Assembly: GCF_025685545.1 (NCBI RefSeq)
Contig: NZ_JAGSYC010000025.1
Coordinates: 310,001 to 374,000, forward strand
Direction: 5' to 3'
DNA: 64,000 nucleotides
From: Granulicella paludicola
GTDB lineage: Bacteria; Acidobacteriota; Terriglobia; Terriglobales; Acidobacteriaceae
The translations under genes and the position numbers were made by a program. The notes beneath the pieces were generated by a model. That model was not told where the DNA came from. It did no database searches and saw only the letters and a program-made list of their open reading frames with translations. This document shows, piece after piece, positions 3,265 through 23,059 of this stretch (positions are counted from its first letter, which is position 1; the number at the start of each line of letters is the position of its first letter).

Positions 3265-4452
3265 TTAGTGGCGACTGAATAAGAGGGAATCGGCGTCTCC
3301 TTCTTGAATCATGCTGTCGTTTGGATAGATGGCATCGACGTTCTCACGCGTGATCATCTGATGTTTGACGAATGATGCAAGAGGGATTTCCTTGCCCTGT
3401 ATCTTGTCGAGGGCCAGGGACATGATGGCGTCGCCGTAATGCTCGGGGAAGTAGGCAACCGAACCCAGCAATCTTGAGTTGCTTCGCCTCATCTCGCGTC
3501 GAGCTTCAATGCTGGCGTTCTGACCCACTGCGAGGCAGCCTTGCGAGCGGCCAGTTTCTTCGAAGGCGTGCAATGCACCCAGGCAGCTAGGGTCATTGAG
3601 AGCCCCTAGCAGGGTGTGTTTCGCCTTGGACTTCGTCAGATGTTTGCGGACGATGGAGAGGCTGGTTTCGAACCGACCTTTGCCATCCAGAAATCGGACG
3701 GCCTGGTCCGGGAGTTTGGGGATCAACTCGCGTATGCCTGCGAGCATTCCTGTCATCCTCGAGCGCGGAAGCGGTCCGGCCATGGGAAGTTCGAGCAGGA
3801 TCACCTCGTCGACGAGACCATTCCATTGCTGGATGCAGGCTTTTGCGAGGGCTCTGCCTCCGATGACACCGGCACGATAGTTGTCGGCACCGTAAAAGGC
3901 AGCGCCCGGGTGCGGCACCTCGATGGCGATCATGGGGATTCCGGCTTCTACGAGCTTGGAGGCGATGATGGAGGCGCTCTGCTGGTTGGTCTGGAACTCG
4001 ATGACGAGGTCCACCTGCTCCTGCACGAACATCTCTGCATTGCGAATGGCGATCTTAGGGCTATACCGATTGCTGACGACCAGTAAATCGATGCCTGCGC
4101 GGTAGGCGCTGCTGCGGATGCTCTCGGAGACGAGGCGTGAAAACGAAAACTCCTCGCTTTGGGAGGCATAACCGAACCGGTAGCGCTTCTTCTGGTCCTG
4201 CGGGCTGGCGAAGCGGTAGGAGTTCTTCGCCGTCCTGACCAGCATGCCGCACTCCACGAGTGTGACCAACATGCGAAAGGTGGTGGGTCGACTGAGCTGC
4301 GTAACTTTGCATATTTCGTCGAGTCCTATGGAACCGGTGGCGTCGCGACAGAGTTTGAGAATCTCGCAGGCCCGAACGACGGACTGAATTGTGTAAGGCG
4401 AATTCTGGGCTTCGGGATTAGAGAGTTTTGAAGATGTATTTTGTGCGTTCAC
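3265..4452 (-). CDS. Transcriptional regulator: IclR-type HTH fused to a periplasmic-binding-protein (sugar) domain
   Basis: This 395-residue cytoplasmic regulator has an unusual domain pair. Residues about 22-75 (SVVRACEILKLCRDATGSIG ... SRPTTFRMLVTLVECGML) form an IclR-family winged helix. From about residue 95 onward the protein is a type-1 periplasmic-binding fold of the RbsB/LacI kind, with IAIRNAEMFVQEQVDLVIEF, the hinge-like GIPMIAIEVPHPGA and a late ITRENVDAIYP. The usual IclR effector (GAF-like) domain is absent. There is no signal peptide. The gene is divergent from the large receptor at 4743, with 290 bp between them, so it probably senses a sugar and controls that receptor and the GH39 gene. 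The sugar is unknown. Confidence 0.85.
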   Translation of the reverse strand: MNAQNTSSKLSNPEAQNSPYTIQSVVRACEILKLCRDATGSIGLDEICKVTQLSRPTTFRMLVTLVECGMLVRTAKNSYRFASPQDQKKRYRFGYASQSEEFSFSRLVSESIRSSAYRAGIDLLVVSNRYSPKIAIRNAEMFVQEQVDLVIEFQTNQQSASIIASKLVEAGIPMIAIEVPHPGAAFYGADNYRAGVIGGRALAKACIQQWNGLVDEVILLELPMAGPLPRSRMTGMLAGIRELIPKLPDQAVRFLDGKGRFETSLSIVRKHLTKSKAKHTLLGALNDPSCLGALHAFEETGRSQGCLAVGQNASIEARREMRRSNSRLLGSVAYFPEHYGDAIMSLALDKIQGKEIPLASFVKHQMITRENVDAIYPNDSMIQEGDADSLLFSRH

Positions 4453-4519
4453 TTGGGGCCAGTAGCTTTCTATATCTGCTCGTCTGTGAATGTACTATTT
4501 TGCAGGTTGAAATTTGACG

Positions 4520-4534
4520 CGATTCAGCGAATCG
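4520..4534. promoter_or_regulatory. Perfect 6-bp inverted repeat in the divergent regulator/receptor spacer (candidate operator)
   Basis: CGATTC-AGC-GAATCG lies about 70 bp upstream of the regulator start and about 210 bp upstream of the receptor start. It is the clearest dyad in the 290-bp spacer (4453-4742). No convincing -35/-10 pair could be assigned there. Its role as the operator of the IclR-PBP regulator is inference. Confidence 0.3.
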
Positions 4535-4742
4535 GAACAGCGACTCCAAAATACCCTGTAATGGATGGAATTGGGAATAGTGTGCGATTTTCGCGCCACG
4601 ATGTATTTCGCTGGATGAAATAAGCAAATTGCTTGAAAACAGTCCTCGTGAACCTCTGTTTGTGCGATCTAGGATGCGCCTCGTTCTGAAGGTTCGTTGA
4701 TCGGTGTTTTGAGATCAGGGCTTTCACCAGAGGAGGCAAAAG

Positions 4743-7700: not shown

Positions 7701-8105
7701 GTCAGCGCCGGTCAGTACAGCACACCGACGCTGCCGGGAGAGAACCTCAACATCGGAGCTTTCAGTGTCTCCAGGCCGAACAAAATTGGAGATCCTGGGG
7801 CTGGCCGAAAGTCTCCAACGCAGTGGTTCAACGCGGCTGCGTTTTCGGTACCGCCATTCGGAACTCCTGGTAATGCTGGGCGCAACTCGCTGGAGCAGCC
7901 TGGCTATCAAAATTGGGATGCCAGCCTTTTCAAGGGCTTCCATGTAGCCAAGCGAGCCAACTTCCAGCTGCGTCTTGAAGCCTTCAACGTCTTCAACCAC
8001 ACGCAATTCGGCTTCGCAAACACGACGCTGGGAGGCAACTTCGGTCAGATCACGTCTACACGATCTGCTCGTATTGTCCAGGTTGGCGGTCGGTTCCAGT
8101 TTTAG
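4743..8105 (+). CDS. TonB-dependent receptor, Oar-like, full length
   Basis: This is a 1120-residue outer-membrane receptor. The start is TTG: AGGAGG at 4731-4736 lies 6 nt before it. The order of parts is a signal peptide with hydrophobic core FVLGVVLALWMP and cleavage near LSAQ (about residue 40); a carboxypeptidase-regulatory-like beta-sandwich at about 42-125 (GDVVATVTDPSGAVIPKVAV); a plug at about 130-260 with LPLNGRNFIQLTQL; and a long barrel ending GGRFQF with terminal Phe. Family signatures include SWKVTPSLTLNLGLRYEY and LRLEAFNVFNHTQFGF. It lies directly upstream of the GH39 gene with an intervening 15-bp stem hairpin. No SusD-like partner is present, as is usual for this phylum. A plant glycan ligand is inferred from context. 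Confidence 0.93.
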   Translation: MKFKFAHEQNLESKPRSSFKGMALFVLGVVLALWMPTLSAQSISGDVVATVTDPSGAVIPKVAVTLTEVNTGQQTKLESNDSGLTVFSSLKPGLYKLVAKMAGFETTQMDNITVVIGQRSSLDVHMRVGSAENTVTVSASEQALLNSESAAVGQDIGKTSIQTLPLNGRNFIQLTQLTTGAAPVGGGNSPASYWTGRSDVTVSFAGLRESDTSYLVNGIETRNARFGNTGLRPSVDAIQEFRVQRTTFGAEFGHSASIVNTDLLAGANAFHLVMFELNRNRAYAANTYFAKQANTPQPSLNQNNFGATLSGPVIIPKLYNGKDKTFFMFNFEGFRLKQGLTDTALYPSTAQLGGNLADDSTGTGLFPTSSAFCLSNPTSVKCVNIINPQTNQPFAGNVIPMAQLNATAQLALQFIPKPNVTVASNSPTLPSFNTIRTPANVQNYNQYNVRLDHTISPHDSIYATWSNSNDNLYNPAINPLGGVNVPINDHLWTATYSHIFNDHLVNEFRFGVNDSATFRNAETAYGPNYAGNLFGLSYANNADPATYGVPNFGISGVGPVGSVTEVIGADDKNYQVSDNLTLTRGKVTSQNGFQYLHESFTQITDFGSNPNLVYSQGYSTRTAAGTNAKSGLIGLSDFLLGEPYQITAAGGDSTQYLHTAYYGFYSQNSWKVTPSLTLNLGLRYEYAGSPIESRNRSQFFDIKTGQFSYAGAGIRRSIVKPDENNFAPRVGFAYRPSFIKDTVIRGGVGTYYGTDNFNEEQFKNQGSPFYTSRSNTPSSTTPVSISSPFVNSSTAFPPANANIFTLDQNNRTSYINQWGLDIQHSFASNYLVELEYAGGSGQKLAQRYNANIGTISATGDPNTQIPLSQRIPFPQYGFILVSGNYGRSNYNAFTAKVEKRLSSGNSFLVAYTYSKAIDIGITDDFSALSRNFFTYDRGVSDYDVPHRFVASYSYHLPFGRGQKFMGTAPLAVDYLIGGWQLNGITTVSAGQYSTPTLPGENLNIGAFSVSRPNKIGDPGAGRKSPTQWFNAAAFSVPPFGTPGNAGRNSLEQPGYQNWDASLFKGFHVAKRANFQLRLEAFNVFNHTQFGFANTTLGGNFGQITSTRSARIVQVGGRFQF

Positions 8106-8111
8106 CGATTC

Positions 8112-8147
8112 GTCTGACGCTTCCGCTACCGCGCGGAAGCGTCAGAC
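8112..8147 (+). terminator. Long perfect hairpin between receptor and GH39 gene
   Basis: GTCTGACGCTTCCGC (8112-8126) and its exact complement (8133-8147) form a 15-bp stem with a 6-nt loop. It is followed by ACTCAGTG, not a T run. It could be a factor-independent terminator with read-through or an mRNA 3'-protection element that sets different dosages of the two genes. Confidence 0.6.
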
Positions 8148-8174
8148 ACTCAGTGCCTATTGTGAGGAGTAACA

Positions 8175-9686
8175 ATGAACAAATCCATGAAGTACCTATT
8201 CGTTGCGCTTGGGGCTGGTCTGCTGGTTTGCCAACCTGCCTTAAGTCAGGCTGTATCCCTTGACGAGGTCAAGATCGATTGGGCGAAGTCGGTGATGGTC
8301 TCGAAGTCGACGCCGACGTTGCAGGTGGTTGTAAATCCGGGTATTGCGCGTGGCGGGAAGTTGAACAAGCCAGCGTTTTCCGCGCTTCATTCGTTAGGGG
8401 CGGACTATGTGCGCTACGTGCCTTGGCTGCCCTATCCGAAACAGGCAGTGGCGGAGTTGAAAGAGCCCACTGATGGCAAGACGTCATGGGACTTCTCGCA
8501 CATAGACCCCACGCTCGATGACTTTATGAAGGCCACGGAAGGACATTCGGTCATTCTAAACTTCAGCACGATTCCCGCGTGGATGTATAAGACCGACAAG
8601 CCTGTCACCTACCCTGACGATCCCAATCAGGTCACATGGAACTACACGCAAGGCACGGACCTGCGTGACCCTTCCATGAAGGAGGTCGCCGATTACTATG
8701 CGCGCCTGCTGAGTTGGTACACAAAGGGGGGCTTTACAGATGAGTACGGCAAACACTGGGAGTCCGGCCACCACTACAAGATCGCGTACTGGGAATTGCT
8801 GAACGAGATCGATTTTGAGCACCACTGGAAGCCTTCGGAGTATGCGCGCTTCTATGACATCGTCTCGACGGCGATGCGGAAGGTCGACCCGGACCTAAAG
8901 TTCATGGCGATCGCGGAAGCTATTCCCGGAAACAATCCGGACATGTTTGAATACTTCCTAAACCCCGCCCATCATCAGGCAGGCATTCCGCTGGACTTCA
9001 TCACCTATCACTTTTACGCGACGCCGACGCCGGATCAGACGATCCACGAGTGGCAGTACACCTTCTTCGATCAAGCCAGCGGCTTTTTGAATACCGTTCG
9101 TTACATCGATGAGATCAAGAACCATTATTCGCCTTCAACCAAAAGCGATCTGGACGAGCTGGGTGTCATTCTTACGGAAGACGAAAAGGAGAACAGCCAT
9201 CCAGGTTACGTTGCCAAGCCGGAACCGGCAGCGTACTGGAACCTTGCCGGGGCTCTCTACGCTCATCTGTATATCGAGCTGTCCAAGCTGGGCATCGACG
9301 TTATCGGCGAGTCGCAACTGGTTGGGTATCCGTCACAGTTTCCCAGTGTGAGCATGATCAACTACAACACCGGCGCACCGAATGCTCGCTTTTGGGTGCT
9401 GAAGCTCCTGAAAGACAATCTCGGACCTGGCGATCAACTGGTCGAAACGGGCGTGTCGAACCCGGGAATTTCGGCGCAGGCGTACCAGACCAGCCACGGC
9501 AAAATGTTGCTGGTGCTCAACAAGCGTGAACGCGAACAGAAGATTTCTCTGCCTGCTGATGCCGAAGGAGCGAATGTCTCCTTTGTCGCTCCTTCGACAG
9601 GAGACCATGCTCCAGCCTCGTCCACTGTCGCCGAGCATAGTTTGATGTTGCAGCCATTCGAGGTCGCAATCGTTCGTTGGAAATAA
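8175..9686 (+). CDS. Glycoside hydrolase, GH39-like (beta-xylosidase / clan GH-A), secreted
   Basis: This is a 503-residue secreted glycosidase with a signal peptide (MKYLFVALGAGLLVC, cleavage near LSQA at about residue 26). AGGAG at 8165-8169 supports the ATG. The TIM-barrel shows the clan GH-A acid/base motif WELLNEIDF (E211), and E335 in VILTEDE is a candidate nucleophile. The C-terminal 100 residues (SAQAYQTSHGKMLLVLNKRE ... MLQPFEVAIVRW) form a beta-sandwich typical of GH39 enzymes. Known GH39 members release xylose or iduronate, and some are arabino-active. Next to a pectinase, arabinanases and an arabinose-isomerase-like gene, a role in trimming pectin side chains is likely but unproven. 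About 200 bp without a clear gene separates it from the next CDS. Confidence 0.82.
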   Translation: MNKSMKYLFVALGAGLLVCQPALSQAVSLDEVKIDWAKSVMVSKSTPTLQVVVNPGIARGGKLNKPAFSALHSLGADYVRYVPWLPYPKQAVAELKEPTDGKTSWDFSHIDPTLDDFMKATEGHSVILNFSTIPAWMYKTDKPVTYPDDPNQVTWNYTQGTDLRDPSMKEVADYYARLLSWYTKGGFTDEYGKHWESGHHYKIAYWELLNEIDFEHHWKPSEYARFYDIVSTAMRKVDPDLKFMAIAEAIPGNNPDMFEYFLNPAHHQAGIPLDFITYHFYATPTPDQTIHEWQYTFFDQASGFLNTVRYIDEIKNHYSPSTKSDLDELGVILTEDEKENSHPGYVAKPEPAAYWNLAGALYAHLYIELSKLGIDVIGESQLVGYPSQFPSVSMINYNTGAPNARFWVLKLLKDNLGPGDQLVETGVSNPGISAQAYQTSHGKMLLVLNKREREQKISLPADAEGANVSFVAPSTGDHAPASSTVAEHSLMLQPFEVAIVRWK

Positions 9687-9883
9687 GATAGCGGTCGCGT
9701 TTGAGTCAATCGTGAAAGATTGAGTGAATGCCATGCATTGCTTTCAAGGCTCTCCAGGTTTGTTGCTCTTTCAGACCGCACACCGAGAGACCCTTTGGCA
9801 GAGGGTATGAGACTGTTTGCGAACCTGTATCCACGCAGCTATGAGACTTTTAGGGACTTGGTCAACGCACAAGGAGAAGAACG

Positions 9884-11320
9884 ATGGATGCCAGATATAA
9901 GAGCTTGCGTGTTGGCTTGATTGGGCTGGGCCTCGAAGCATACTGGTCGCAGTTTGAAGGTTTGGAGGAGCGCCTGGAGGGCTATCTTTCCGAGGTAGAA
10001 GGAAAGATAAGCGATCCTGCTCGGACAATCGCCAACCTTGGCTTGGTGGACAGTCCGGCGAAAGCCATCGAGGCTGGACATGCATGCAGGAGAAGCGATA
10101 TCGACCTTCTGCTTGTGCATATAACGACGTATGCGCTGTCCTCGACCGTACTCCCCGTCATTCTGATGGCCAAAGTGCCGGTGATCCTGCTGAACATTCA
10201 GCCGACGGAGGCCATCGATTATGGCCGCTTCAACCGGATGAGTAACCGTACGGCGATGACCGGCGAGTGGCTTGCCTATTGCAGTTCATGTCCCGTGCCG
10301 GAGATCGCGAACGTGATGCGGCGTCTCGACATGCCGTTTCACCAGGTCACAGGCGTTTTGCACGACGATCCCCAATGCTGGCTGGAACTGGAGGGATGGT
10401 TGAAGGCCGCCGCAGTCGCGAAGGGACTAAGTCACAGCACGCTGGGATTGATGGGCAACTACTACAGCGGCATGCTCGATATCGCGACCGACCTTGCGCA
10501 AGTAAGCGGACGGTTCGGTATCAACATCGAGCAACTGGAGGTCGAGGAACTTTGCGCGATTCGCAGGGAAGTAGCCGAAGGCGACATCGCTGCGAAGATG
10601 CAAAGCTTCGCCAGCTTTTTCGCCATCAGCGACGACTGCACGGAGGAAGAATTGATCCGCGCAGCGCGGACGGCCGTTGCCCTAGATACGCTCGTTGCAC
10701 AGCATGACCTAGATCTAATGGCGTACTACCACAAGGGCACCGGCATCGCCGAGACTGAGGACGTGATGAGTTCGGTTATCCTTGGCACCTCAATGCTGAC
10801 CGGTCATGGCGTACCTGTTGCCGGTGAGTACGAGGTAAAGAACGCGATTGCGATGAAGATCATGGACCTGTTCGGAGCAGGAGGATCGTTTACGGAATAC
10901 TACGCCGTAGATTTTGCGTCGGATCTCGTTTTGATGGGACACGACGGGCCGGGCCACGTAAACATCGCTGAGGATAAGATTCAGGTGCGACCGCTGCAGG
11001 TTTATCACGGTAAGGTGGGCAACGGACTTTCGGTGGAGATGTCTGTGAAGCACGGGCCTGTAACGCTGCTTTCGATCGTTGAGAACAAACGCCGTGGATT
11101 TGCGCTGTTGGTCGCGCACGGAGAGAGCGTTCCGGGTGAAATTCTCGAAATAGGGAATACGAACAGTCGTTATAGCTTTCCTCTTGGAGCGCGAGGCTTC
11201 ATCGAGGCGTGGAACTCCCATGGTCCAGCGCACCATTGTGCTATCGGGGTTGAACATATTGGGCCGCGCCTGGAGATGCTGGCACGTTTGCTTGACCTTG
11301 ATTTTTTTCAGGTCTGCTGA
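9884..11320 (+). CDS. L-arabinose/L-fucose isomerase family protein
   Basis: This 478-residue cytoplasmic protein resembles the arabinose-isomerase fold and would interconvert an aldose and a ketose with a divalent metal. AAGGAGAAGAACG precedes the ATG. Family hallmarks are visible: GVPVAGEYEVKNA with E315, where AraA has its first metal-binding Glu; the GHDGPGH segment (H353, H358); and GPAHHCAIG (H450, H451), matching the C-terminal AraA motif AHHTVF. The N-terminal Rossmann-like part starts LRVGLIGLGLEAYW. Overall similarity to classical AraA is distant, so the substrate could be L-arabinose, L-fucose or another deoxy-sugar. No araB kinase or araD epimerase is present in the window. Confidence 0.75.
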   Translation: MDARYKSLRVGLIGLGLEAYWSQFEGLEERLEGYLSEVEGKISDPARTIANLGLVDSPAKAIEAGHACRRSDIDLLLVHITTYALSSTVLPVILMAKVPVILLNIQPTEAIDYGRFNRMSNRTAMTGEWLAYCSSCPVPEIANVMRRLDMPFHQVTGVLHDDPQCWLELEGWLKAAAVAKGLSHSTLGLMGNYYSGMLDIATDLAQVSGRFGINIEQLEVEELCAIRREVAEGDIAAKMQSFASFFAISDDCTEEELIRAARTAVALDTLVAQHDLDLMAYYHKGTGIAETEDVMSSVILGTSMLTGHGVPVAGEYEVKNAIAMKIMDLFGAGGSFTEYYAVDFASDLVLMGHDGPGHVNIAEDKIQVRPLQVYHGKVGNGLSVEMSVKHGPVTLLSIVENKRRGFALLVAHGESVPGEILEIGNTNSRYSFPLGARGFIEAWNSHGPAHHCAIGVEHIGPRLEMLARLLDLDFFQVC

Positions 11321-11708: not shown

Positions 11709-12169
11709 GTCTCGCAAGCTCTAAGACTTTGCGAAGTGTAGGAAGCGATCTCTTGCATTTTCTGCACTCTGGGAAGAAGCACAAGCCAGACAGCGCAAAG
11801 CTGGGGGCCTGACTCGTTTTCTTAGATGTCCTTGTATCGCGCCGGCCAGCAACTAGATGGCGTGGAGTTCTGCATACAGTGATCAGAACGCCAAGATTAC
11901 CCCCGTCACGCATAACGGTCAGACCGCGCTGCAAAAGCAAATGGATTAGAAACAGCTTGACACTGACATTGTGGGATCGCTATAAAAAGCGCGCCACAGA
12001 AACCTGTTTGCGGTTGCTTCAAGTTTGACAAGTTGAGAAAAGGTTTACTCGGCCGTTTTGGGTTGTACTCGGCCAATCCTTACATCTTTTGATCGTATAG
12101 AAAATGTTTACTGGAGTGGTTTGCCGTCGCGTGTGGCTGCGGCAAAGCTACTGAATGAGGAGATGTCGG
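11709..12169. other. 460-bp intergenic region upstream of the third TonB receptor
   Basis: No coding remnant is recognisable here in either strand. The distal 130 bp carry the repeat block described separately (12042-12074), a further TTTACTGG at 12107-12114, a TTGACA at 12025-12030 and a TATAGA at 12096-12101. These two hexamers are too far apart to be one promoter. The region probably holds the receptor promoter and operators. Confidence 0.5.
12042..12074 (+). promoter_or_regulatory. Tandem GGTT(G)TACTCGGCC repeat, candidate operator of the receptor gene
   Basis: TACTCGGCC occurs at 12046-12054 and again at 12066-12074, exactly 20 bp apart, which puts both on one face of the helix. Both copies are preceded by GGTT. 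A third, weaker TTTACTGG follows at 12107. Two in-phase direct repeats about 100 bp before a start suggest cooperative binding of a regulator, possibly the small IclR HTH protein. Confidence 0.4.
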
Positions 12170-15100
12170 ATGAATGTTCGGAGCAGGTTTGGGATTCGGT
12201 CGCTTGCAATGGTGGCACTGTTGACTCTCGGTTTTGCGATCGGTCACGCGCAGATCAACTCTGGTTCACTGGGCGGCACGGTGACCGATGTCACGGGCAG
12301 CGTCATCCCCAGCGCGCAACTGGTTGCGACCGAGACGGCATCGGGCACTGTTTACAAGACGACTTCGTCGTCCTCAGGCGGCTATGTGTTCACGTCCCTG
12401 CGTCCCGGTACCTATTCCGTCACCGTGACGGCCCCTGGATTTTCCGTCGCAAAGGTAACGGCGTTGCCGGTATATGTAACAACGCGCTCCTCGCATGACT
12501 TTGCGCTTGCGGTCGGTGGGGCGAACGACACAGTCACCGTCGATGCGGCGGGGCCGTCGCTCGAGACCGAGAGCTCTGATGTTGGCACAGTGTTGACCGA
12601 GGCGCAGGTGCAGGACCTGCCATCGGCTGCCGGCGGAGCTATCCGTTCACTGGCGGCGCTGACATTCCTGACGCCAGGTGCGGTTGGTCCGGGAACCAAC
12701 GGTGGCACATTATTCACAAAGATCGGCGGCGGCCAGACCTTCGGCAGCGACAACCTGATCGACGGTATCAGTACGCAGAGGTCAGAGAATGGCACGGAGT
12801 ACTTCGATCAGATGACGCCGTCCCTGGATGCGATTGGCGAGGTGCGTGTAGAGACGTTGACGCTGCCAACGTACCTGGGACGTACGACGGGCGGTATCTC
12901 GAACTTCAAGACCCGTTCAGGTACGAACACTTATCACGGCACGGTGTATGACTTCTTCAAGAATACGATCTTCGATGCGAATAGCTGGTTCAACAAGGGC
13001 AATGCAGCCCTCAACCAATTGACTCAGGATGCCGTCGGCTATCGTCGTCCTACCGATATGCACCAAGACTACGGTGCGACGCTGGGTGGGCCGCTTTCGA
13101 TTCCACACTTCTACAACGGTCGGGATAAATCGTTTTTCTTTTTCAGCTTCGAGCAGACGCCCAGCAACTTCGGCCATACCGTTCAATCGACGGTGCCGAC
13201 GCTGGCGCAGCGTGGTCTGGCCAATGGAAGCAATGGAGCGATTGGAGACTTTTCGTCGACGCTGGGAGCGGCGATTCCCGGTGTGACTAATCCCTGCACG
13301 GGCAATCCTGTGCTGGTTGGACAAATCTTCGACCCGACCACGACCCGGACCGTGGGTGGTGTGGAGTGCCGCACGCCGTTTACGAATAACCAGGTGCCAA
13401 TCGGTCGGAGCCAGATTGCGACCAAGGTATTGGCCTTGATCCCGCTGCCGAACTATGTAGGCGCGGGCACGACGAACTACCAGTACGTTACCAACGAGAA
13501 GGTGAACCAGGACGTCTACTCGCTGCGACTCGACCAGAGCTTCGGCACGCGGCATCACCTGTTCGGCTTCGCCAGTGCACGCGAAAACTACGATTCCGGT
13601 GTTGCCGACTTGCCGGGGCCAGCCAATAGCGGATCGCAGCTTCAGGACTTCTATGCCAAGCTAATCCGCGTCGGTTACGACTTTACGATTACGCCCCGCC
13701 TTGTGAACCAGATCACCTTCGGTGGCAACCGCATCAATAGCTTCAACAGTGCGCCAGCTTCGCTGCTTGGTGTGGACTACGATGCGCAGCTGGGAATTCC
13801 AAATACGCCTTCGGCGGGAACGACCTTCCCAACGTTCAACATTGGCGAAAACCTGCCGGGACTGGGAAGCGCGAACTTTGACGATAACGTCGACAACGCG
13901 CTGCTGGCGGATGACAACCTGAGCTGGAGCAAGGGCCGTCATAGCGTCCGCGTGGGTGGCACGTATCGGTGGCAGCAATTCAGCTATGAGAACAACGGGC
14001 CGGCCGCAGGCTATTTCAACTTCTCGCGCACCCAGACCGCCGGCACCAACGGTGGCACAGCAGAGCAGCAGAGCGGTAATGGCATTGCGAGCTTCCTGCT
14101 GGGCGCCCCCGCCTCTACGGGCCGCTCGCTGCAGGTTCACTTTCCACGCTGGATCTCGCATTATTATGCGGCCTATGCTCAGGATGACTGGAAGGTGCGC
14201 TCGAACCTGACGCTGAACCTGGGCTTCCGGTATTCGATAGACACGCCGCGGCATGAAGCTGAGGGTGATATCTCGGGCTTTGACCCGACGTTGCCAAACC
14301 CGTTGGCGAATGGCCTGCTGGGTGCGATCCGCTTCGGCGGTGTTGGCCCGGGCCGCGATGGCAATAAGAATGAACAGTTTGCCGATACGTACTACCACGC
14401 TTTTGAGCCGCGTGTAGGTTTTGCGTATTCGCCGGGCTGGCTGCATGACAGCTTTGTGCTTCGCGGTGCGTACACCATCATGTATGGCCCGCTGATCTAT
14501 GCGGACTACGGACAGGGCCTAAGCCAGGGCTTTACGACCAACACGCCGCCACAGACGAACGATCCCTACACGCCTTCGGGAGCACTCGATGCCGGGCCGC
14601 CAACGTTGTCGTTGACGCCAACGATTACCCCGTCTCTGAACGTAGGCGGTGGCGTCGACTACGTCGCCAAGACGGATGGACATCCAGCAACGGTGCAGAA
14701 CTGGACGCTCGAAACCGAACAGCAGCTGCTACCTGACCTCATTTTGACACTCGGCTATCTGGGCGAGCGCGGGACCCATCTGCGCTCCCTGGTGTACTGG
14801 GAGAACTCGTTGAACCCAGCCTACTTTGGATTGGGCAATACGCTCTATCAGCCACTACAGTCGGCCGCTGGTGTGGCTTCCGGTGTGCAGGCGCCGTTCG
14901 CCAACTTCTTCCAGATCACGAACGGCCAGGTTGGCCAAGCGTTGCTGCCGCATCCACAGTACGGGTATATCAACAACGACAGCTATCTGCAGAACCGCGG
15001 GCAGTCCACCTACAACGCAATGATCGTAAAGTTGGATCGCAAGTTCCGTAACGGCCTGAACGTGCTGCTCTCGTATACGTGGTCGAAGACTTTTACGGAT

Positions 15101-15823
15101 GCGGATTCGATCCAACCGTATTTCCAGGTGGTACAGAGCCAGGGCGGAACGCAGAATCCCTTCGACTTGAAGGCGGAGCGCGATGTCAGCACGGCGGATG
15201 TGCCGACCAATTTTGTGGCGAGCTATCTATACGAGCTGCCCATCGGAAAAGGCAAGAAGTTCCTGGGCAACAGCAACCGCATTGTGGACGCATTGATCGG
15301 TGGCTATCGCGTCGGCGGTGTCGACCGCTACCTGAGCGGACAACCGATCAGCTTTTTCGGCGCTCAGGGCATCCCGTACTTCGATGGCGGAGTACGGTAT
15401 CAGAAGGTCGTGGGCCAGGACTTCCAGACGCCTGCGGCGCATAGCGGCCACTACAACCCGCTGAGCTACATGTCGGTAGGCACGGCAGGAAATAATTCAA
15501 CAAGCTTTTTCAATCGCGGCGCCTTCGTCGACTTGAACGATGCGGCGCACCGCGGCAGCGGAACGTACCGGCTCGGCGATATGCCACGGAATGCAGCCAA
15601 CTCGCGCACACCTGCTTACTTCAACGAAGATGCGAACATCAACAAGCACATTCCGATCCATGGAGAGATCTCGGCGGACCTGCGGCTGGAGGCATTCAAT
15701 GTCTTCAACCGGCATGGTTTTAGCAAGCCGGACTCAGGTGTGGCGGATATCAACTTCGGACAAATTACGGGCTTGAATGACGCGCCACGCAGCATGCAGG
15801 TTGTGCTGAAGATCCGGTACTAG
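12170..15823 (+). CDS. TonB-dependent receptor, Oar-like, full length
   Basis: This 1217-residue outer-membrane receptor could also be read from an ATG at 12155. GAGGAG at 12157-12162 lies 7 nt before the ATG at 12170, and starting there gives a clean signal peptide (MNVRSRFGIRSLAMVALLTL, cleavage near GHAQ), so 12170 is preferred. A carboxypeptidase-regulatory-like domain follows (about 30-110: GGTVTDVTGSVIPSAQLV), then the plug (about 120-260, ALTFLTPGAVG) and the barrel, with NLTLNLGFRYS and LRLEAFNVFNRHGF late in the sequence. It ends in an aromatic residue (LKIRY). It is followed after 42 bp by two GH43 arabinanase genes on the same strand, so an arabino-oligosaccharide ligand is the best guess. 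Confidence 0.92.
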   Translation: MNVRSRFGIRSLAMVALLTLGFAIGHAQINSGSLGGTVTDVTGSVIPSAQLVATETASGTVYKTTSSSSGGYVFTSLRPGTYSVTVTAPGFSVAKVTALPVYVTTRSSHDFALAVGGANDTVTVDAAGPSLETESSDVGTVLTEAQVQDLPSAAGGAIRSLAALTFLTPGAVGPGTNGGTLFTKIGGGQTFGSDNLIDGISTQRSENGTEYFDQMTPSLDAIGEVRVETLTLPTYLGRTTGGISNFKTRSGTNTYHGTVYDFFKNTIFDANSWFNKGNAALNQLTQDAVGYRRPTDMHQDYGATLGGPLSIPHFYNGRDKSFFFFSFEQTPSNFGHTVQSTVPTLAQRGLANGSNGAIGDFSSTLGAAIPGVTNPCTGNPVLVGQIFDPTTTRTVGGVECRTPFTNNQVPIGRSQIATKVLALIPLPNYVGAGTTNYQYVTNEKVNQDVYSLRLDQSFGTRHHLFGFASARENYDSGVADLPGPANSGSQLQDFYAKLIRVGYDFTITPRLVNQITFGGNRINSFNSAPASLLGVDYDAQLGIPNTPSAGTTFPTFNIGENLPGLGSANFDDNVDNALLADDNLSWSKGRHSVRVGGTYRWQQFSYENNGPAAGYFNFSRTQTAGTNGGTAEQQSGNGIASFLLGAPASTGRSLQVHFPRWISHYYAAYAQDDWKVRSNLTLNLGFRYSIDTPRHEAEGDISGFDPTLPNPLANGLLGAIRFGGVGPGRDGNKNEQFADTYYHAFEPRVGFAYSPGWLHDSFVLRGAYTIMYGPLIYADYGQGLSQGFTTNTPPQTNDPYTPSGALDAGPPTLSLTPTITPSLNVGGGVDYVAKTDGHPATVQNWTLETEQQLLPDLILTLGYLGERGTHLRSLVYWENSLNPAYFGLGNTLYQPLQSAAGVASGVQAPFANFFQITNGQVGQALLPHPQYGYINNDSYLQNRGQSTYNAMIVKLDRKFRNGLNVLLSYTWSKTFTDADSIQPYFQVVQSQGGTQNPFDLKAERDVSTADVPTNFVASYLYELPIGKGKKFLGNSNRIVDALIGGYRVGGVDRYLSGQPISFFGAQGIPYFDGGVRYQKVVGQDFQTPAAHSGHYNPLSYMSVGTAGNNSTSFFNRGAFVDLNDAAHRGSGTYRLGDMPRNAANSRTPAYFNEDANINKHIPIHGEISADLRLEAFNVFNRHGFSKPDSGVADINFGQITGLNDAPRSMQVVLKIRY

Positions 15824-15865
15824 CTAAATCAGCTTCCGCTTTATCCACGCTTCATGGGAGACACG

Positions 15866-17008
15866 ATGAATCTTCGTTCCACGATGAGCTTGACGGTTGC
15901 GACGCTCCTTCTCAGCGCTGTGGCCGTGGCGCAGAGCACGCTGCCGCAGGCGCTGCGACTCTCGGGCGCGTTCGGTGGAACGCATGACCCCTCGATCGCA
16001 TTCGATCATGGAACGTACTACGTGTTTGCGACAGGTGCGGCCTATCCCGCACGTCCTGAGGGAGCAGCACCGCCGTCGCCCGACGATGCGAAGGCACCGC
16101 CACCGGCACCGATTGGGCAGTTTCCGATCCGCTGCTCAAAAGACCTGCACCACTGGACACGCTGCGGCGCGGTCTTTCCGGCGATCCCCGAATGGATTCA
16201 GCAGGCGAGTCCGAAGACGCGTGAGCTTTGGGCTCCAGACATCAGCTACTTCGATGGGCTGTACCACCTGTACTATGCATTCTCGGTTTTTGGGAAGAAT
16301 ACCTCCGGCATTGCGCTGGCAACCAACGAAACGCTGGACCCCGCCAGTCCGAAGTACAAATGGTTGGACCGAGGTCTGGTCATTCGATCCTATGAAAAGG
16401 ACGACTTCAACGCGATCGATCCAAACCTGGTGCTGGATGCGAAGGGACAGGCGTGGCTTTCGCTAGGCAGTTTCTGGTCGGGAATCAAGATGATCCACCT
16501 GGATCGCGCGACGGGGCTGCAGTCGAAGACGGACGCGAAGATTTACCCGTTAGCCTCGCGCCATGCTCCATCCGTTGCCGTGCGAAACCCGGATCTGCCG
16601 CCGGATTCGGAGGCCATTGAGGCTCCGTTCATCTTCCTGCATGGCGGCTTTTACTACCTGACCGTGTCCTGGGATCTCTGCTGCCGCGGAACGAAGAGCA
16701 CGTATCGCACCATGGTGGGCCGCTCGAAGGATGTGACCGGGCCATACGTCGATCGTGATGGAAAACCGATGATGCTTGATGGCGGTACGCCGCTGCTCAT
16801 TGCGAACGCTACGTGGCTCGGACCGGGCGGCGCTTCGGTGCTGCGTACGCCGGACGGCAAGCCAGCGGAAGATCTACTGGTGTTCCACGCATATAGCGCG
16901 AAGGATGGGCATCCAGCGATGCAGATATCCACGATTGCGTGGAAGGATGGTTGGCCGCAGGTTGCGCTGGAAGGCGATGGTAGCCCATTGCTTGAGGCGG
17001 GGCCTTAG
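15866..17008 (+). CDS. GH43 arabinan endo-1,5-alpha-L-arabinosidase
   Basis: This is a 380-residue secreted five-bladed beta-propeller. GGGAG at 15856-15860 supports the ATG at 15866 over the one at 15854. The signal peptide ends near VAVAQ (about residue 23). All three GH43 catalytic acids are visible: D41 in THDPSI (base), D185 in NAIDPNL (pKa modulator) and E252 in EAIEAPF (acid). The arabinanase-type ELWAPDISYFDGLYHLYY and FHAYS (metal-binding His) are present. A proline/alanine-rich insert near residues 64-88 (PPSPDDAKAPPPAP) is unusual and forms an exposed loop. It probably cuts alpha-1,5-arabinan in the periplasm or outside the cell, with the paralogue that follows. Confidence 0.88.
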   Translation: MNLRSTMSLTVATLLLSAVAVAQSTLPQALRLSGAFGGTHDPSIAFDHGTYYVFATGAAYPARPEGAAPPSPDDAKAPPPAPIGQFPIRCSKDLHHWTRCGAVFPAIPEWIQQASPKTRELWAPDISYFDGLYHLYYAFSVFGKNTSGIALATNETLDPASPKYKWLDRGLVIRSYEKDDFNAIDPNLVLDAKGQAWLSLGSFWSGIKMIHLDRATGLQSKTDAKIYPLASRHAPSVAVRNPDLPPDSEAIEAPFIFLHGGFYYLTVSWDLCCRGTKSTYRTMVGRSKDVTGPYVDRDGKPMMLDGGTPLLIANATWLGPGGASVLRTPDGKPAEDLLVFHAYSAKDGHPAMQISTIAWKDGWPQVALEGDGSPLLEAGP

Positions 17009-17094
17009 GTTTGTGACGTTTGAGCGCAGATCGTACGCGATTGTCGGCGCGTTATCGTAATTGTCTTTCTCGTGTTGGTTCAGGAGTCTGTCCT

Positions 17095-18195
17095 ATGTAT
17101 CTCGTCTCTCTACTTCGCCGATCTTCCCGCGCTGCCCGCTGCTGCGCTGTCTTGACCCTTGCCACTGCAACGCTGGGGCTGGGTAGTTGTTCGTCCGGAA
17201 CCACGCCTGGGGCTGCGATTAATTTGGTCACCTCGCCGCTGTCGGTGTATGACCTGAAGGGGGACGTCGGTCTGATTCATGATCCGACGATCATCCGCCA
17301 GGGATCGAACTATTATGTCCTTTCGACGGACGGTGGCCAGGCAGGCGGCTTTCTGCCAATGTTCTGCTCGTCAGACAAGATCAATTGGAAGCGGTGTGGC
17401 CAGGTGTTTACGACCATCCCTGCTTCTCTGTCGACGGCGCTCGGCAGCGCGGTTACGTCGCTGTGGGCGCCAGACGTGAGCTACTTCAACGGCTTGTATC
17501 ACGTGTACTTTGTGGCCTCGGTCTTCGGCAGCAAGAATTCGATCATCGCGTTGGCGACCAGCCCGACGATGAACCCTACCGACCCGACGTATCAGTGGAC
17601 CTACCAGGGCATCACGTTACAGTCGCCGAGTGACGGTTCTGGCTACAACGCAATCGATCCCAGCATTCTTGTGGACACCGACAGCAACGGCAACCTGACG
17701 CATGTATGGATGACCTACGGCAGTTTCTATAACGGCATCGCGCAACGGGAGATCAACCCGGTGACCGGCCAGCTCTTACTGGCACAGACTGCTGCGCCGA
17801 CCCAACTGGCGACACGGCCGGGGGTGGCAAATAATCCTATCGAGGGGCCGTCGCTGGTCAAGCACAACGGCTACTACTACCTGTTTGCATCATTTGACTA
17901 TTGCTGCAACAGCAATTTCACGACGGACAACTACAAGATCGCGGTAGGCCGTGGCACGAGCCCACAGGGGCCGTTCGTGGACATGAACGGCATTTCCATG
18001 CTGAACGGCGGAGGAACGATCCTGTTGCAGACGGCGGGTGAGTTCACGGCGCCCGGTGGCGAGGACGTGCTGGTCGATCCGACCAACGGCGACCTGATTG
18101 CCTTCCATGCGTTGTCGAACACGCAGAATGGGTATGACTATTTGTTTGTGAAATCGTTGACGTGGCCTTCGGACTGGCCTGTGATTTCGAACTAG
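17095..18195 (+). CDS. GH43 arabinan endo-1,5-alpha-L-arabinosidase, lipoprotein
   Basis: The upstream ATG/GTG options lack ribosome sites, while AGGAG at 17082-17086 sits 8 nt before the ATG at 17095, giving 366 residues. The N-terminus is a lipoprotein signal with lipobox LGSC (C32), so the enzyme is anchored to a membrane. The GH43 acids are intact: D63 in LIHDPT, D188 in NAIDPS and E250 in PIEGPS. SLWAPDVSYFNGLYHVYF and FHALS match the arabinanase subfamily of the gene upstream, and both share the ...DYCCN/DLCCR cysteine pair. Having one soluble and one anchored copy suggests sequential cutting of arabinan. It ends at a strong bidirectional terminator shared with the LacI gene. Confidence 0.88.
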   Translation: MYLVSLLRRSSRAARCCAVLTLATATLGLGSCSSGTTPGAAINLVTSPLSVYDLKGDVGLIHDPTIIRQGSNYYVLSTDGGQAGGFLPMFCSSDKINWKRCGQVFTTIPASLSTALGSAVTSLWAPDVSYFNGLYHVYFVASVFGSKNSIIALATSPTMNPTDPTYQWTYQGITLQSPSDGSGYNAIDPSILVDTDSNGNLTHVWMTYGSFYNGIAQREINPVTGQLLLAQTAAPTQLATRPGVANNPIEGPSLVKHNGYYYLFASFDYCCNSNFTTDNYKIAVGRGTSPQGPFVDMNGISMLNGGGTILLQTAGEFTAPGGEDVLVDPTNGDLIAFHALSNTQNGYDYLFVKSLTWPSDWPVISN

Positions 18196-18211: not shown

Positions 18212-18260
18212 AACACAATGCAGGGCCTCAGCTTAACGGCTGCAGGTCCTGCATTGTGTT
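18212..18260. terminator. Bidirectional hairpin between GH43 and LacI genes
   Basis: AACACAATGCAGGGCC (18212-18227) pairs with 18245-18260 over 16 bp with a single G-T wobble and a 17-nt loop. The right arm lies inside the 3' end of the LacI coding sequence, so the last LacI codons double as a terminator arm. Confidence 0.8.
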
Positions 18261-19352
18261 TCTGGGTAAACCGGTCGTTTGGCGGACGATGAGCTTTGTC
18301 GTCACCTGCGCGACTGTGGGGAGGGTGGAGTTACCTGGTTGGACCCGGGCCAGCAGGCATTTGATCGCTGCCTTCGCAAGATCGCGGCAGGACATGCGCA
18401 CGGTTGTAAGCGGCGGTATGGTGTACTCGGCGAGGTGTATGTCGTCAAAGCCGATGAGGGAGAAGTCGGCTGGGACCTTGAGGTTGGCCTCGAAGAGGGC
18501 ATGCTGTACGCCGATGGCAGTCATGTCGTTGGAACACATGATGGCGGTGGGCCAATCGGTGAGTGCGAGGATCTTGTTCATGGCATCTCTACCGCCGTCA
18601 AGGGTGTGATCGCCTTCGACCATCCACAGCTTTTGGGGGACAATACCGGTGGTGCGTAAGCAGTTATGAAAGACAGATAGACGCGCCGCGGCGGAGTGCA
18701 GGTGAAGTGGGCCGCTAATGAAGCCGATCTTGCGATGGCCGAGGACGGCGAGGTGCTGGATGCCCTCGTGTATGCCCGCGCCGTAGTCCACGGAAAGGCG
18801 GTTGACACGAGTGCTGCTGGGCGCGACATCGATGAGAGCGACAGGGATGCCCTCGTCGGCGAAGCGCTCGACGAGAGCATCCTCGAAACCGAAGGTCATA
18901 ATGGCGACGCCATCGACCTTGCGCTCGAGCATGCGGCGGGCGCAGTCCTCCATCTTGCGGGGGTTGTAGTCGGTAGAACCTATGAGGAGCTCGTAACCCT
19001 GGGCGACGGCGACCTCCTCGAACTCGCGGATGAGCTCGGGGAAGAAGGGGTTCGTGATTTCGGAGACGACAAGGCCGAGCATGCGGCTGCGGCCGGAGAC
19101 CAAGGCGCGGGCCTGAGTGTTCGGTCGGTAGTTCAGCTCGCTTACTGCCTTCCAGACGCGGGCGGCAAGTGAGGGATCCACGGTTGCAACATGATTTACG
19201 GTGCGTGAGACGGTGGCTATAGAAACTCTAGCGTGGGCTGCGACGCTGCGGATGTCGATCTTGGGAGCTTTGGTATTGATCGTGTCGGGGCGCGCTCGAG
19301 CAGGTTTACTTGCAAGCGAAGGTTTTCGAGGCTTTGTGGAGTCCCTCTTCAA
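18228..19352 (-). CDS. LacI-family transcriptional repressor
   Basis: This is a 374-residue regulator. A basic, Lys/Arg/Ser-rich N-terminal extension of about 30 residues precedes the LacI HTH (IDIRSVAAHARVSIATVSRT, then NYRPNTQARAL hinge region). The remainder is a type-1 sugar-binding core: GLVVSEITNPFFPELIREFE, the VALIDVAPSS segment, FISGPLHLHSAAARL and SLIGFDDIHLAEYTIPPLTT. It converges with the GH43 gene across a shared terminator and its promoter faces the region before the Ig-GH43-like gene. It is likely to repress the arabinanase part of the locus in response to a pentose. The effector cannot be read from sequence. Confidence 0.9.
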   Translation of the reverse strand: MKRDSTKPRKPSLASKPARARPDTINTKAPKIDIRSVAAHARVSIATVSRTVNHVATVDPSLAARVWKAVSELNYRPNTQARALVSGRSRMLGLVVSEITNPFFPELIREFEEVAVAQGYELLIGSTDYNPRKMEDCARRMLERKVDGVAIMTFGFEDALVERFADEGIPVALIDVAPSSTRVNRLSVDYGAGIHEGIQHLAVLGHRKIGFISGPLHLHSAAARLSVFHNCLRTTGIVPQKLWMVEGDHTLDGGRDAMNKILALTDWPTAIMCSNDMTAIGVQHALFEANLKVPADFSLIGFDDIHLAEYTIPPLTTVRMSCRDLAKAAIKCLLARVQPGNSTLPTVAQVTTKLIVRQTTGLPRNTMQDLQPLS

Positions 19353-19704: not shown

Positions 19705-22587
19705 CTATGGGACGAGGGCGGAGACGTGGATGTAACTGAAAGTGGCGCCTTCGCCGAGGTTGTCGGCGAAGATGCCAATCTTGGCGGACGTGCCATACGT
19801 GACGTTCCAGGCTGGCCCACGAACATAGGTGACGCCGTCCACACTGCTGTAACTGGTGTAGGTGGCTGCGCCAGTAGAGGCATTGGTGATGCGCTTGGCC
19901 AGCCGCAGGTAGGTGAAGGCCGAGTTGTGGGGCGTACCGACCGGGGCGGTCGACGAGTAGGCCGTATTGTTCGACGTGTTGACGCCGAACTGGTTGAGGA
20001 ACTCAAGCTGTCGTGTGTCAAAGTCGGCCCAGTCGTCAAGACGGAGATAGACAGCGTCGCTGCTGTAGACCATCAAGCCCTGGGCGGGGTAGTTGTAGCT
20101 GCAGCAGCCGGTAGGCGGAGTGAGCGAGTGGAACTTGATCTCGACCATATAGTTGCCGGTTGGTTCAGCTTCGGCAAGAATTGGCAGCGTCGTCATGCTG
20201 TACGCCGTTCCGGGGACGTTGGTGGACTCTGCGAAGTTTGAGCACAGCGTGAAGCCAGTAGCGCCGAAGCCGGGTGAGACGCCGGGAACCGCCGCAAAGC
20301 CGTTGCCAGGATCGAGGCAGGCAGCGTTCGGGTTGGGGCCGTGAATGAAACTGAACTGGCTGGCGAAGGCGGTCGCTCCCGCGAAGTCCTGCGAGTATGC
20401 GGCAAGCGCCGCGCCAGGTGCGTCGGGGGCGTAGGCGGGTGGGACGTACCCGTTGGTGGCGGCGGGTTGCGCGGCGGGGACGGGTTGAGGTTGGTCGGAG
20501 TCACCCGTTCCGTTGCGGACCACAGGCCAGCCGTTGACCCAGTCGAGCGGATCCATCATGAGCTGGCGCGCGGTGTATCCAGTCACATTGGGCAGGTATT
20601 GCTGGTTGGTGGAGACGCCGGAGTAGAAGATGTAGTCTTGGCCGGCCTCGTCGGTGAAGGTGGTATTGCTGCCGGGGCCGACGATCGTGTTGCCGGTGTT
20701 TACGAACACGGTGTCGCCGCCGGCAGCTCCATTGGTGCCGGAGGTAGCGGAGAAGGCGTTCATGTCGTTGCCTTCCGCGTCAAGGTATGGTCCAGTGATG
20801 CTGGTAGAACGTCCGACACGAACGCTGTAAGTGGAGTAGGCTCCGCTGCAGCAGGCGCCTGCAGGTGTGGCGAATTCGTAGTAATAGCCGTTCTTGTAGA
20901 GCAGATAAGGATTTGTGTAGTAGTTGTCGACGGCGATATTAACCTCGGTGCCAGCGTTGGAGGTGAGGCCGTTGGCAGAGAGTTGACGGATGGATAGGCC
21001 GGCGTAAATTCCCCCATAGGCGATCCAAAGCTGGCCGGTCTGATCGGCGAGGACTTCAGGGGCGAAAACAGTTCGGTTACAGCTGTTTCCGCAGGCGAGC
21101 TGCTGGTTTACGACCGGTCCGCCGCTATCGATGAAGGGGCCGGCGGGTGTAAGTGCGACGCCGACGCCAATGGCAGAGCCACCCGGAGAGGCAGTGACAG
21201 CAGGCGCCTCATAGTAGAGCAGATACTTGCCGCCGATGAATTTGATGGCGGGCGTCTGCAGCTCCTGTCCGGTCGCGATCCACGTGGGGAGCGTGGCGAA
21301 AGCGTCGCGGACGTAGGTCCAGTTGACGAGGTCGGGGGAACTGAAGATGGAGATCAGGTGAGCGCGGAAGCTGCCGCCAGGAGTAACCGTGTCAGCGGAG
21401 TTGAAGGCGTCTCCGGTGCAGTAGGCGTACCAGGTGTCTGTACCCGCAAGCTGGTACTTGATGATGGCGGGGTCGGGGCAGTTGTAGACCTTGCCCGTGT
21501 TGTCGACTGTGTCGGTGAGATTGAGCGGGTTTGTGTAGTTGGCACCGGTGTAGGCGGTGATAGTGAGCTTGAGCGAGTTAGTGGTGTAGTTGGGCGCGTA
21601 GTTCGCGTCGCCCGAGTAGTAGGCGGTAATCGTATTGCCAGCCGTGCCGGTGACGAACTGCTTGGTGGTGAGCGTGGCAGCGGTCCCGGCGCTGTTGACA
21701 GACGCAGTACCCAGAACGACGGTCCCGTCGTAGAAGGTCACGGTGCCGGTGGGCGCTCCCTTCGTGGTGCTTTGAGGGACGATGGTCGCGGTGAGGGTGT
21801 CGGAGGTGCCAGCGGCGACCGTGGCATTGTTGGCGACGGTGCCGGAAAGGGTGACGGTATCCTGCGTGAGCGGCGAGTGGACCGTGACGGCCGCACCGGC
21901 AGTAGTTACCGAGCCGAGGAAGAAGCCATTGGCTGCCAGCGAGGCACTGAAGACCTGTGTGCCGGTGGGCGCGCCGATGGTGTAAGGGAGCATGGCGATT
22001 GCGGTGCCATTCACGGTGGAAAGCGCGGCCGATCCAATGACCGTGGGGGCGCCGCCATTGGTCGCGACGTAAAAGGTGACCGTGCCGGTAGGGATGCTCA
22101 AGCCGCCGTTCGCGATGGCGGTGAGGCTGATGGGGTCGCCTACGCCGGCGATGATGAAGTTGGAGGCGATCGTGAGCGAGGTGGGGTCGTAGACGTTGAC
22201 CGTAACGGGTGCGGAGGTAGAGCCAGCGTGGGCCTGGTCACCACCGTAGACAGCGGTGATCTGATGTGCGCCGATGGCGAGGCCGGAGATGGTCGCGGTC
22301 ACCGTGCCTGCCCCCGCTACCACGACAGGCTGAAGGTACGTAGTGCCATCGTAGAAGACGATGGTGCCGAATGCAGACGAGATGGCGGAACCGCCAGCTA
22401 GTGTAGCCGTGGCGGTGAAGGAGCCTCCGACGTTGATCGTCGTGGTGGAGGTGGTCAGCGCGACAGAGGTGCCGGGGAGCGCGGTCGTGGTATTGCTGCT
22501 GCTGTTACAACCCGTAAGAGGGAGCAGGGCGAAAGCGGCGAGAATGGCTGCGGCGATGACGCTGCGGAACTGGATTTGGTGGCTCAC
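19705..22587 (-). CDS. Lipoprotein with three Ig-like repeats, a degenerate GH43 domain and a C-terminal beta-sandwich
   Basis: This 960-residue surface lipoprotein has lipobox LTGC (C27). Residues about 38-345 hold three Ig-like repeats of the bacterial type with GTVTFYDGT and ITAVYSGD. Residues about 355-690 align well with the two neighbouring GH43 arabinanases, including shared CCSG and a WVNGWPVV end. However, only the base is kept (D372 in CPDPAI): the pKa-modulating Asp is Ala (A509 in FAPEVL), the acid Glu is Thr (T558 in YYTNPY) and the metal-binding His is lost. The last 220 residues resemble the concanavalin-like domain often appended to GH43. It is therefore more likely a glycan-binding surface protein than an arabinanase. 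It is transcribed towards the LacI gene. Confidence 0.8.
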   Translation of the reverse strand: MSHQIQFRSVIAAAILAAFALLPLTGCNSSSNTTTALPGTSVALTTSTTTINVGGSFTATATLAGGSAISSAFGTIVFYDGTTYLQPVVVAGAGTVTATISGLAIGAHQITAVYGGDQAHAGSTSAPVTVNVYDPTSLTIASNFIIAGVGDPISLTAIANGGLSIPTGTVTFYVATNGGAPTVIGSAALSTVNGTAIAMLPYTIGAPTGTQVFSASLAANGFFLGSVTTAGAAVTVHSPLTQDTVTLSGTVANNATVAAGTSDTLTATIVPQSTTKGAPTGTVTFYDGTVVLGTASVNSAGTAATLTTKQFVTGTAGNTITAYYSGDANYAPNYTTNSLKLTITAYTGANYTNPLNLTDTVDNTGKVYNCPDPAIIKYQLAGTDTWYAYCTGDAFNSADTVTPGGSFRAHLISIFSSPDLVNWTYVRDAFATLPTWIATGQELQTPAIKFIGGKYLLYYEAPAVTASPGGSAIGVGVALTPAGPFIDSGGPVVNQQLACGNSCNRTVFAPEVLADQTGQLWIAYGGIYAGLSIRQLSANGLTSNAGTEVNIAVDNYYTNPYLLYKNGYYYEFATPAGACCSGAYSTYSVRVGRSTSITGPYLDAEGNDMNAFSATSGTNGAAGGDTVFVNTGNTIVGPGSNTTFTDEAGQDYIFYSGVSTNQQYLPNVTGYTARQLMMDPLDWVNGWPVVRNGTGDSDQPQPVPAAQPAATNGYVPPAYAPDAPGAALAAYSQDFAGATAFASQFSFIHGPNPNAACLDPGNGFAAVPGVSPGFGATGFTLCSNFAESTNVPGTAYSMTTLPILAEAEPTGNYMVEIKFHSLTPPTGCCSYNYPAQGLMVYSSDAVYLRLDDWADFDTRQLEFLNQFGVNTSNNTAYSSTAPVGTPHNSAFTYLRLAKRITNASTGAATYTSYSSVDGVTYVRGPAWNVTYGTSAKIGIFADNLGEGATFSYIHVSALVP

Positions 22588-23059
22588 TGTGGTGGATCCT
22601 CACGGCGATAGTCTAGAAAACGTATTCTTGAATGGCTGCAATCGTACGAAGCAGATGAAGCGCGGCAGGGTTCCGGCAATGCCCCGCACGCACACCTGCG
22701 GATGTTGAGAGACATCGCTAGAGTTAGGAATCTTAGCGCGGAAACTATACCCACACACAATAATGAAGCGCAAGAGTCTTTTTGGGATGGGTAAACGCTT
22801 CCTGCGGTGGAGTGCCAGTGTCCGTAGCATGACGCGAACCAGCCCGTCCCGGCTTAACAGTCTGGGTTGCGTTCCACCGCATTCAGGTATTTCTGCAATG
22901 CGACCGCCGAATTCGTGGCTCGCGGTCTGCGTAGGTGGTTGGCTGATACAGAAGCTGAGGCGCTCTATATCGAGCCCGGTTAGCCGATGATATCGACGGT
23001 ATTCCAGTCGGAATAGAGCGGGAGCGCTCCGAATTCGGTTACCGCCGTGCTGGAGCCTC
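22588..23059. other. Intergenic region before the integrase scar
   Basis: About 470 bp contain the upstream region of the Ig-GH43-like gene. Open frames here (for example a 161-codon one on the minus strand from 22600) have no recognisable motif or ribosome site and look like chance. The right half may be eroded mobile-element DNA. Confidence 0.4.

Follow-up and report, generated by a model that had tools for sequence, protein, structure and literature searches.

A Pfam match alone leads to annotation of the protein encoded at positions 19705..22587 of the window (the whole stretch of 64,000 nucleotides of DNA from the soil bacterium Granulicella paludicola analysed here) as a GH43 hydrolase. 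Residues that serve GH43 catalysis are replaced in this protein, and its locus, a gene cluster for the use of arabinan, a sugar polymer of plants, raises the question of whether it still cuts glycans and, if it does not, what it is kept for. The explanation that we prefer, and to which we give a probability of about 0.5 as a whole, is that it is a pseudoenzyme kept as an anchored, non-cutting protein that most likely holds arabinan. The gene, termed pseudo-GH43 below, and its domains are laid out as follows.

19705..22587, minus strand: pseudo-GH43 lipoprotein gene, 960 aa, GTG start (open frame, domain scan)
22507..22587, minus strand: signal peptide and lipobox LTGC with Cys27 (translation inspected by eye)
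22192..22458, minus strand: Ig repeat 1 (Big_3_5), residues 44-132 (Pfam)
21880..22143, minus strand: Ig repeat 2 (Big_3_5), residues 149-236 (25 bits, below the curated cut-off of 35.5)
21577..21834, minus strand: Ig repeat 3 (Big_3_5), residues 252-337 (stretch scanned singly)
20524..21477, minus strand: GH43 five-bladed propeller, residues 371-688 (PF04616, 109 bits; cut-off 32.2)
19708..20430, minus strand: C-terminal concanavalin-like sandwich (GH43_C2-like through relatives)

The LTGC motif, read by eye from the translation, provides the lipoprotein signal expected of a surface glycan-binding protein. The Ig repeats were assigned to Big_3_5 by scanning each stretch singly, and all three of those proposed in the first-pass annotation gave a match, that of the middle repeat falling short of the curated threshold. 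The concanavalin-like domain with which that annotation closed the protein (the C2 domain below) has no match in our Pfam scan of the window copy and is recognised through relatives, GH43_C2 lying above the cut-off in L035, L007, L040, L041, L042 and L043 and below it in L033, L006, L044, L045 and L046. Against the NCBIfam AbnA equivalog, which has a cut-off of 480 bits, the window protein scores 96 bits; its two residue-intact GH43 neighbours likewise stay under the cut-off, with 254 and 221 bits.

An AlphaFold2 model computed from eight rows has a mean pLDDT of 57, with GH43 blocks mostly at 60-91, dips of 39-48 and a poor C2 domain; because of this low pLDDT, use of the model was confined to comparison of the fold. 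When the model (mean pLDDT 57) was superposed with VIA-align, the propeller fitted arabinanases best, with 1gye, Cellvibrio Arb43A, giving Z 33.6 and an rmsd of 2.4 over 286 aligned residues, so that the superposition and PF04616 both place the protein in GH43. Ranked by E-value at full length, Foldseek puts GH43 beta-xylosidases with a C-terminal sandwich on top. These proteins (Geobacillus XynB3-type, EcXyl43) share propeller and sandwich with the window protein, but they are active enzymes, and the propeller alone fits arabinanases better. The endo-arabinanases Cellvibrio Arb43A and Geobacillus AbnB share with it the five-bladed propeller, the general base and the CC pair, and are its best matches both in sequence and in VIA-align. 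In contrast to them, the window protein has replaced the acid, the pKa-modulating Asp, the metal His and the WAP Trp, and carries an added Ig stalk and C2 domain. The positions concerned are these.

21472..21474, minus strand: Asp372, general base, retained (Asp in 28/28 covering rows, plus L093 and L050)
21256..21258, minus strand: Gln444, WAP-motif Trp position (W in 25/25 full-length intact members; Q/Y/Q in the inactive three)
21061..21063, minus strand: Ala509, pKa-modulating Asp position (Arb43A and family alignments)
20914..20916, minus strand: Thr558, general acid Glu position (Arb43A and family alignments)
20620..20622, minus strand: Ser656, metal-site His position (H in 25/25 full-length intact members; S in the inactive three)

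The first-pass annotation had read by eye an Asp to Ala change at 509, a Glu to Thr change at 558, loss of the metal-binding His, a retained CCSG pair and two intact GH43 neighbours, and alignment bears out this reading throughout. In phmmer, A509 pairs with D158 of Cellvibrio Arb43A; the top PDB match, 1gyh, is by its title the D158A mutant of that very enzyme. S656 falls opposite the His of the Arb43A segment 'YLVLHAY', and the CCSG pair lies at residues 579-582. 'TNPYLL' of the window protein pairs with Arb43A 'EAPFIL', and as the printed alignment has a gap right before the Pro, the assignment of T558 to the general acid Glu position is based on the Pro anchor and the family alignment. Both neighbours retain IDP, E(A/G)P and FHA. 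An active GH43 has one Asp as base, another as pKa modulator and a Glu as acid; the window protein has the base, with A509 and T558 in place of the other two.

Published mutants indicate which of these losses count most. In AtAbf43C, D168A, D283A and E344A, which put alanine in place of one catalytic acid each, all abolish activity on pNPAra, and H408A does not lower it (PMC12493170). For XacGH43_1, the source describes a His that holds calcium beside the -1 subsite, with the carbonyls of the pKa-modulating Asp and of an Ala-Pro pair among those near the calcium waters, and states that GH43s activated by calcium are impaired when their conserved His is mutated (PMC7809346); we infer that this Ala-Pro pair corresponds to the WAP motif. 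A rumen metagenome study notes that characterised GH43s may be without the His, or may have other hydrophobic residues for the Trp (PMC3382598). Given these mutants and this variability, the Asp and Glu losses are decisive and the His and Trp losses weigh less. On this comparison of residues, the window protein is very probably a non-hydrolytic GH43 pseudoenzyme, incapable of GH43 hydrolysis. Loss of cutting would leave room for binding: PDB titles list single-residue arabinanase mutants with ligand (D147A with arabinobiose, D147N with arabinohexaose, D27A with arabinotriose), and such inactive, ligand-bound mutants make a binding role possible in the GH43 fold. No GH43 protein with lost catalytic acids appeared among the literature matches listed, which comprise titles and the starts of abstracts and leave subscription literature mostly uncovered, and the available portions of PMC7021837 and PMC5849685 contain no pseudoenzyme precedent. 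Heparanase 2 is another glycoside-hydrolase pseudoenzyme that retained its fold and lost catalysis, in a different family and organism.

The distribution of the changes was followed with a six-row family profile, searched against three overlapping genome sets that were sampled from larger groups (family, 398 genomes; phylum, 396; class, 399), and a search of the contig collection added three loci. Profile scores form two groups, over 500 bits for family members and under 175 bits for other GH43s, with the exception of one fragment of the G149 copy at 198 bits. Removal of duplicates (L034 is the G025 copy, L035 the G720 copy) left 31 distinct members. The same Ala and Thr substitutions recur in Granulicella sapmiensis (L005/L034), as the first-pass annotation had suggested looking for; a third inactive protein, L033, has Ser and Gln at these positions, and all 28 others keep Asp and Glu (25 full-length rows, the partial L060, L093 and the broken L050). 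The metal His is present in 25/25 full-length intact members. The broken copy, L050 (G061), has its catalytic motifs, the base motif in a different frame, and an in-frame TGA.

The three inactive proteins come from three species and form one clade in a 29-row tree (support 100/100, stem length 0.52). This clade is nested in an 11-row set (100/99) whose remaining eight rows are residue-intact, and it persists after removal of 12 changed columns. Its place among intact relatives, together with the fit of the propeller, supports the arabinanase descent that had been proposed. The simplest reading of the tree is one loss event in the common ancestor of the three. An artefact or frameshift was rejected, as the frames are open in three species. 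L033 (contig CAJCHN010000144.1) is filed under Rhodanobacteraceae, and the gene adjoining its pseudo-GH43 reaches 74% identity with genes of the window genus; with this identity the contig is probably mis-binned, and horizontal transfer to Rhodanobacteraceae seems unlikely.

The intact Acidobacteriota sisters (L007, L040, L041, L043 and L045, and the fused L006, L042 and L044) belong to the same family and have the same Ig-GH43-C2 order; unlike the inactive proteins, they keep the catalytic residues, and each of these eight rows has two Big_3_5 repeats where the inactive three have three each. The more distant L046 has no Big_3_5 match. As the sisters are Ig-stalked too, the stalk predates the loss and is in itself no special adaptation; the inactive clade is marked by its third repeat. 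In neither the window genome nor G025 was an intact family copy found, only weaker GH43s, so in these two the switch looks like conversion of a sole copy, not of a spare duplicate.

Much of the propeller has stayed as it was. We defined 67 near-invariant GH43 columns, with the same residue in at least 24 of the 25 full-length intact members; 51 are retained in all three inactive proteins and 7 in some, and the remaining 9 (369, 444, 445, 509, 558, 574, 583, 586 and 656) are changed throughout. Of the four positions with a catalytic or metal role, three fall among these nine (Fisher p = 0.0065), and with W444 counted as well it is four of five (p = 0.0008). The inactive proteins also differ from intact members at W921, H929 and V953 of the C2 domain. 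The former catalytic positions differ across the three (509 A/A/S, 558 T/T/Q, 444 Q/Y/Q). With this variability and with W444, A445 and H656 gone, the old -1 subsite is probably no longer a conserved sugar site. It seems to have been dismantled, and putative binding would then use outer subsites, another face or the C2 domain. Cys499 and Cys503 (ACGxxCN, window positions 21079-21093, residues 499-503) are common to the three inactive proteins and precede A509; Cys503 occurs in at most two of the 25 intact members, and the pair may possibly form a disulfide loop covering the old pocket.

The inactive genes are still under selection. NG86 dN/dS in the GH43 domain, computed as 0.254/2.023, 0.245/1.438 and 0.378/1.370 for the three inactive pairs, gives 0.13-0.28, figures that are rough because of saturation; it is about 0.04-0.08 in the four of nine intact pairs that could be estimated, the other five being saturated. 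Constraint on the inactive proteins is thus relaxed relative to intact pairs but real, as far as rough figures go, and the gene order is kept in two species. In the C2 domain, dN/dS is about 0.15, 0.33 and 0.51 for inactive pairs and about 0.09-0.16 for intact ones (5/9 pairs estimable). Columns identical across the inactive three number 179/333 in GH43 and 79/206 in C2, and the corresponding ranges for five triples of intact members are 176-219 out of 310-329 and 103-118 out of 208-214; the fewer identical columns and higher dN/dS mark the C2 domain as the freer of the two. The three frames are open over 939-974 aa, with four-fold site identity of 0.38-0.43 in the GH43 domain, near saturation. 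Between the window and G. sapmiensis, pseudo-GH43 is 64% identical, in line with the genes around it: GH43b 60%, LacI 65%, TBDR2 65% and GH43a 72%. These neighbours, and a short motif upstream of the gene, are the following.

18228..19352, minus strand: LacI-type regulator, downstream of the pseudo-GH43 gene on the same strand
17020..18195, plus strand: GH43b, residue-intact arabinanase-like protein (domain scan, motifs)
15854..17008, plus strand: GH43a, residue-intact arabinanase-like protein (domain scan, motifs)
12155..15823, plus strand: TBDR2 (label given here), CarboxypepD_reg and OMP_b-brl_4 outer-membrane receptor (Pfam)
22615..22628, minus strand: operator-like 14-mer AGAATACGTTTTCT, 27 bases before the start codon, once in the window

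The order pseudo-GH43, LacI and then, on the opposite strand, GH43b, GH43a and TBDR2 is common to the window and G. sapmiensis. Around L033, neither LacI nor GH43a or GH43b is found within 21 kb, and a piece resembling TBDR2 (44% over 308 aa) lies at the end of the contig stretch. Twelve further regions were compared, one of them that of G025 itself. In the other eleven, around intact relatives, a TBDR2-like receptor is present in 5/11 regions (L095, L097, L099, L101, L102) and a LacI relative in 1/11 (L098), several of these stretches ending at contig ends. Further genes at window positions 1843-11320 encode a GH28, a GH39-like enzyme, an L-arabinose-isomerase-like protein and a second receptor of TBDR2 type; with these nearby, the locus may amount to a broader cluster for pectin and arabinan.

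The 14-mer, a putative operator, has a single identical counterpart in L034, which lies 50 bases ahead of the start codon of the G. sapmiensis copy; the full alignment of the upstream regions missed it because the distances to the start codon differ (27 versus 50 bases). With up to three mismatches allowed, L034 has a related operator-like site some 500 bases upstream of TBDR2, and none was found upstream of TBDR2 in the window or anywhere in L033. L098 has three LacI-type sites between its LacI relative and the enzyme gene (0.23 expected; 0/200 shuffles). A looser operator pattern is near chance, with 5 sites in the window against 1.77 expected and 2 in L034 against 0.85 expected; L033 has no such site.

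Three other explanations compete with that of an anchored binding protein. That the protein is still an enzyme, acting through other residues or on a different reaction, is highly improbable. The base Asp372 is retained, the acids D359, E442, D608 and D625 are common to the inactive three and occur in at most 30% of the 25 intact members, and a GH43-like xylanase functions with Asn replacing the pKa-modulating Asp (PMC11022575). That same xylanase, however, retains the acid Glu, and the window protein has no acid at 558 or adjoining it (TNP), L033 having an Asp one residue on (QD). E442 is found in intact GH43a and D608 in Arb43A, so neither is new; a new catalytic acid was rejected, these two occurring in other arabinanase-type proteins and D625 and D359 being unsupported. 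It is also quite unlikely that an enzyme gene is slowly decaying and has been kept by chance so far. The higher dN/dS of the inactive pairs relative to estimable intact pairs, the varying former catalytic positions and the less conserved C2 domain are what decay would produce, but three long frames have stayed open despite near-saturated synonymous sites, 51 of the 67 near-invariant columns are retained in all three, and identity to G. sapmiensis resembles that of the adjoining genes.

The protein could, alternatively, be a non-catalytic partner of GH43b that docks to, positions or regulates it at the membrane, which we regard as unlikely. The argument for it comes from L006/L094, L042/L098 and L044/L101, in which one frame encodes a domain similar to GH43b (50-55% identity), then two Ig repeats and then the GH43-C2 unit of the family, so that the two units have been physically joined in evolution; in the window and in G. 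sapmiensis, GH43b and pseudo-GH43 are separate genes of one locus. Against it, the two genes lie on opposite strands, and GH43b was not found in the 21 kb around L033. The fusions are, in their own right, natural double GH43 proteins.

Loss of the same residues in at least three species makes it probable that the protein has taken on a function other than cutting, for instance the holding of a polymer, and this is the pseudoenzyme reading that we prefer. An Ig-stalked lipoprotein of arabinanase type would have lost its acid, pKa-modulating Asp, metal His and pocket Trp in a common ancestor and kept its scaffold after catalysis was gone. Lipid and Ig stalk would anchor it at the outer membrane, where it would most likely hold arabinan or arabino-oligosaccharides close to the receptor and both intact GH43s encoded beside it, and the adjacent LacI regulator would presumably control its gene. 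A surface glycan-binding role in itself is putative and stands at about even odds. Still more tentative, with the balance somewhat against it, is the fuller proposal of an arabinanase turned surface lectin that would serve arabinan uptake in SusD-less Acidobacteriota with the CarboxypepD_reg/OMP_b-brl_4 receptor.

The likeness to the SusD and SusE/F-like proteins of Bacteroidota concerns a lipoprotein gene near an outer-membrane receptor gene and a proposed role; unlike SusD, the protein has no SusD_RagB match and is a putative binder. The first-pass annotation described the phylum as lacking SusD/SusE-type proteins and the window protein as a possible replacement for them. The first part holds for SusD, SusD_RagB (PF07980) being absent from 148/149 sampled genomes and present in one; our Pfam scan likewise gave no match in the window genome or in the pseudo-GH43 protein. 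The second part is not supported: 28/31 family members keep their catalytic residues in a largely SusD-less phylum, so that the loss is not predicted by a lack of SusD.

The locus is a concrete candidate for the holding of polysaccharide at the cell surface in Acidobacteriota, in whose sampled genomes SusD_RagB is so largely missing. Three descendants of what was presumably one loss, together with intact sisters from their own genus and bacterial family, make a before-and-after set, and the main interest is in an enzyme-to-pseudoenzyme switch that can be tested with intact sisters at hand for comparison. If the reading is true, it would represent an independent route from a GH43 arabinanase to a surface glycan-binding protein.
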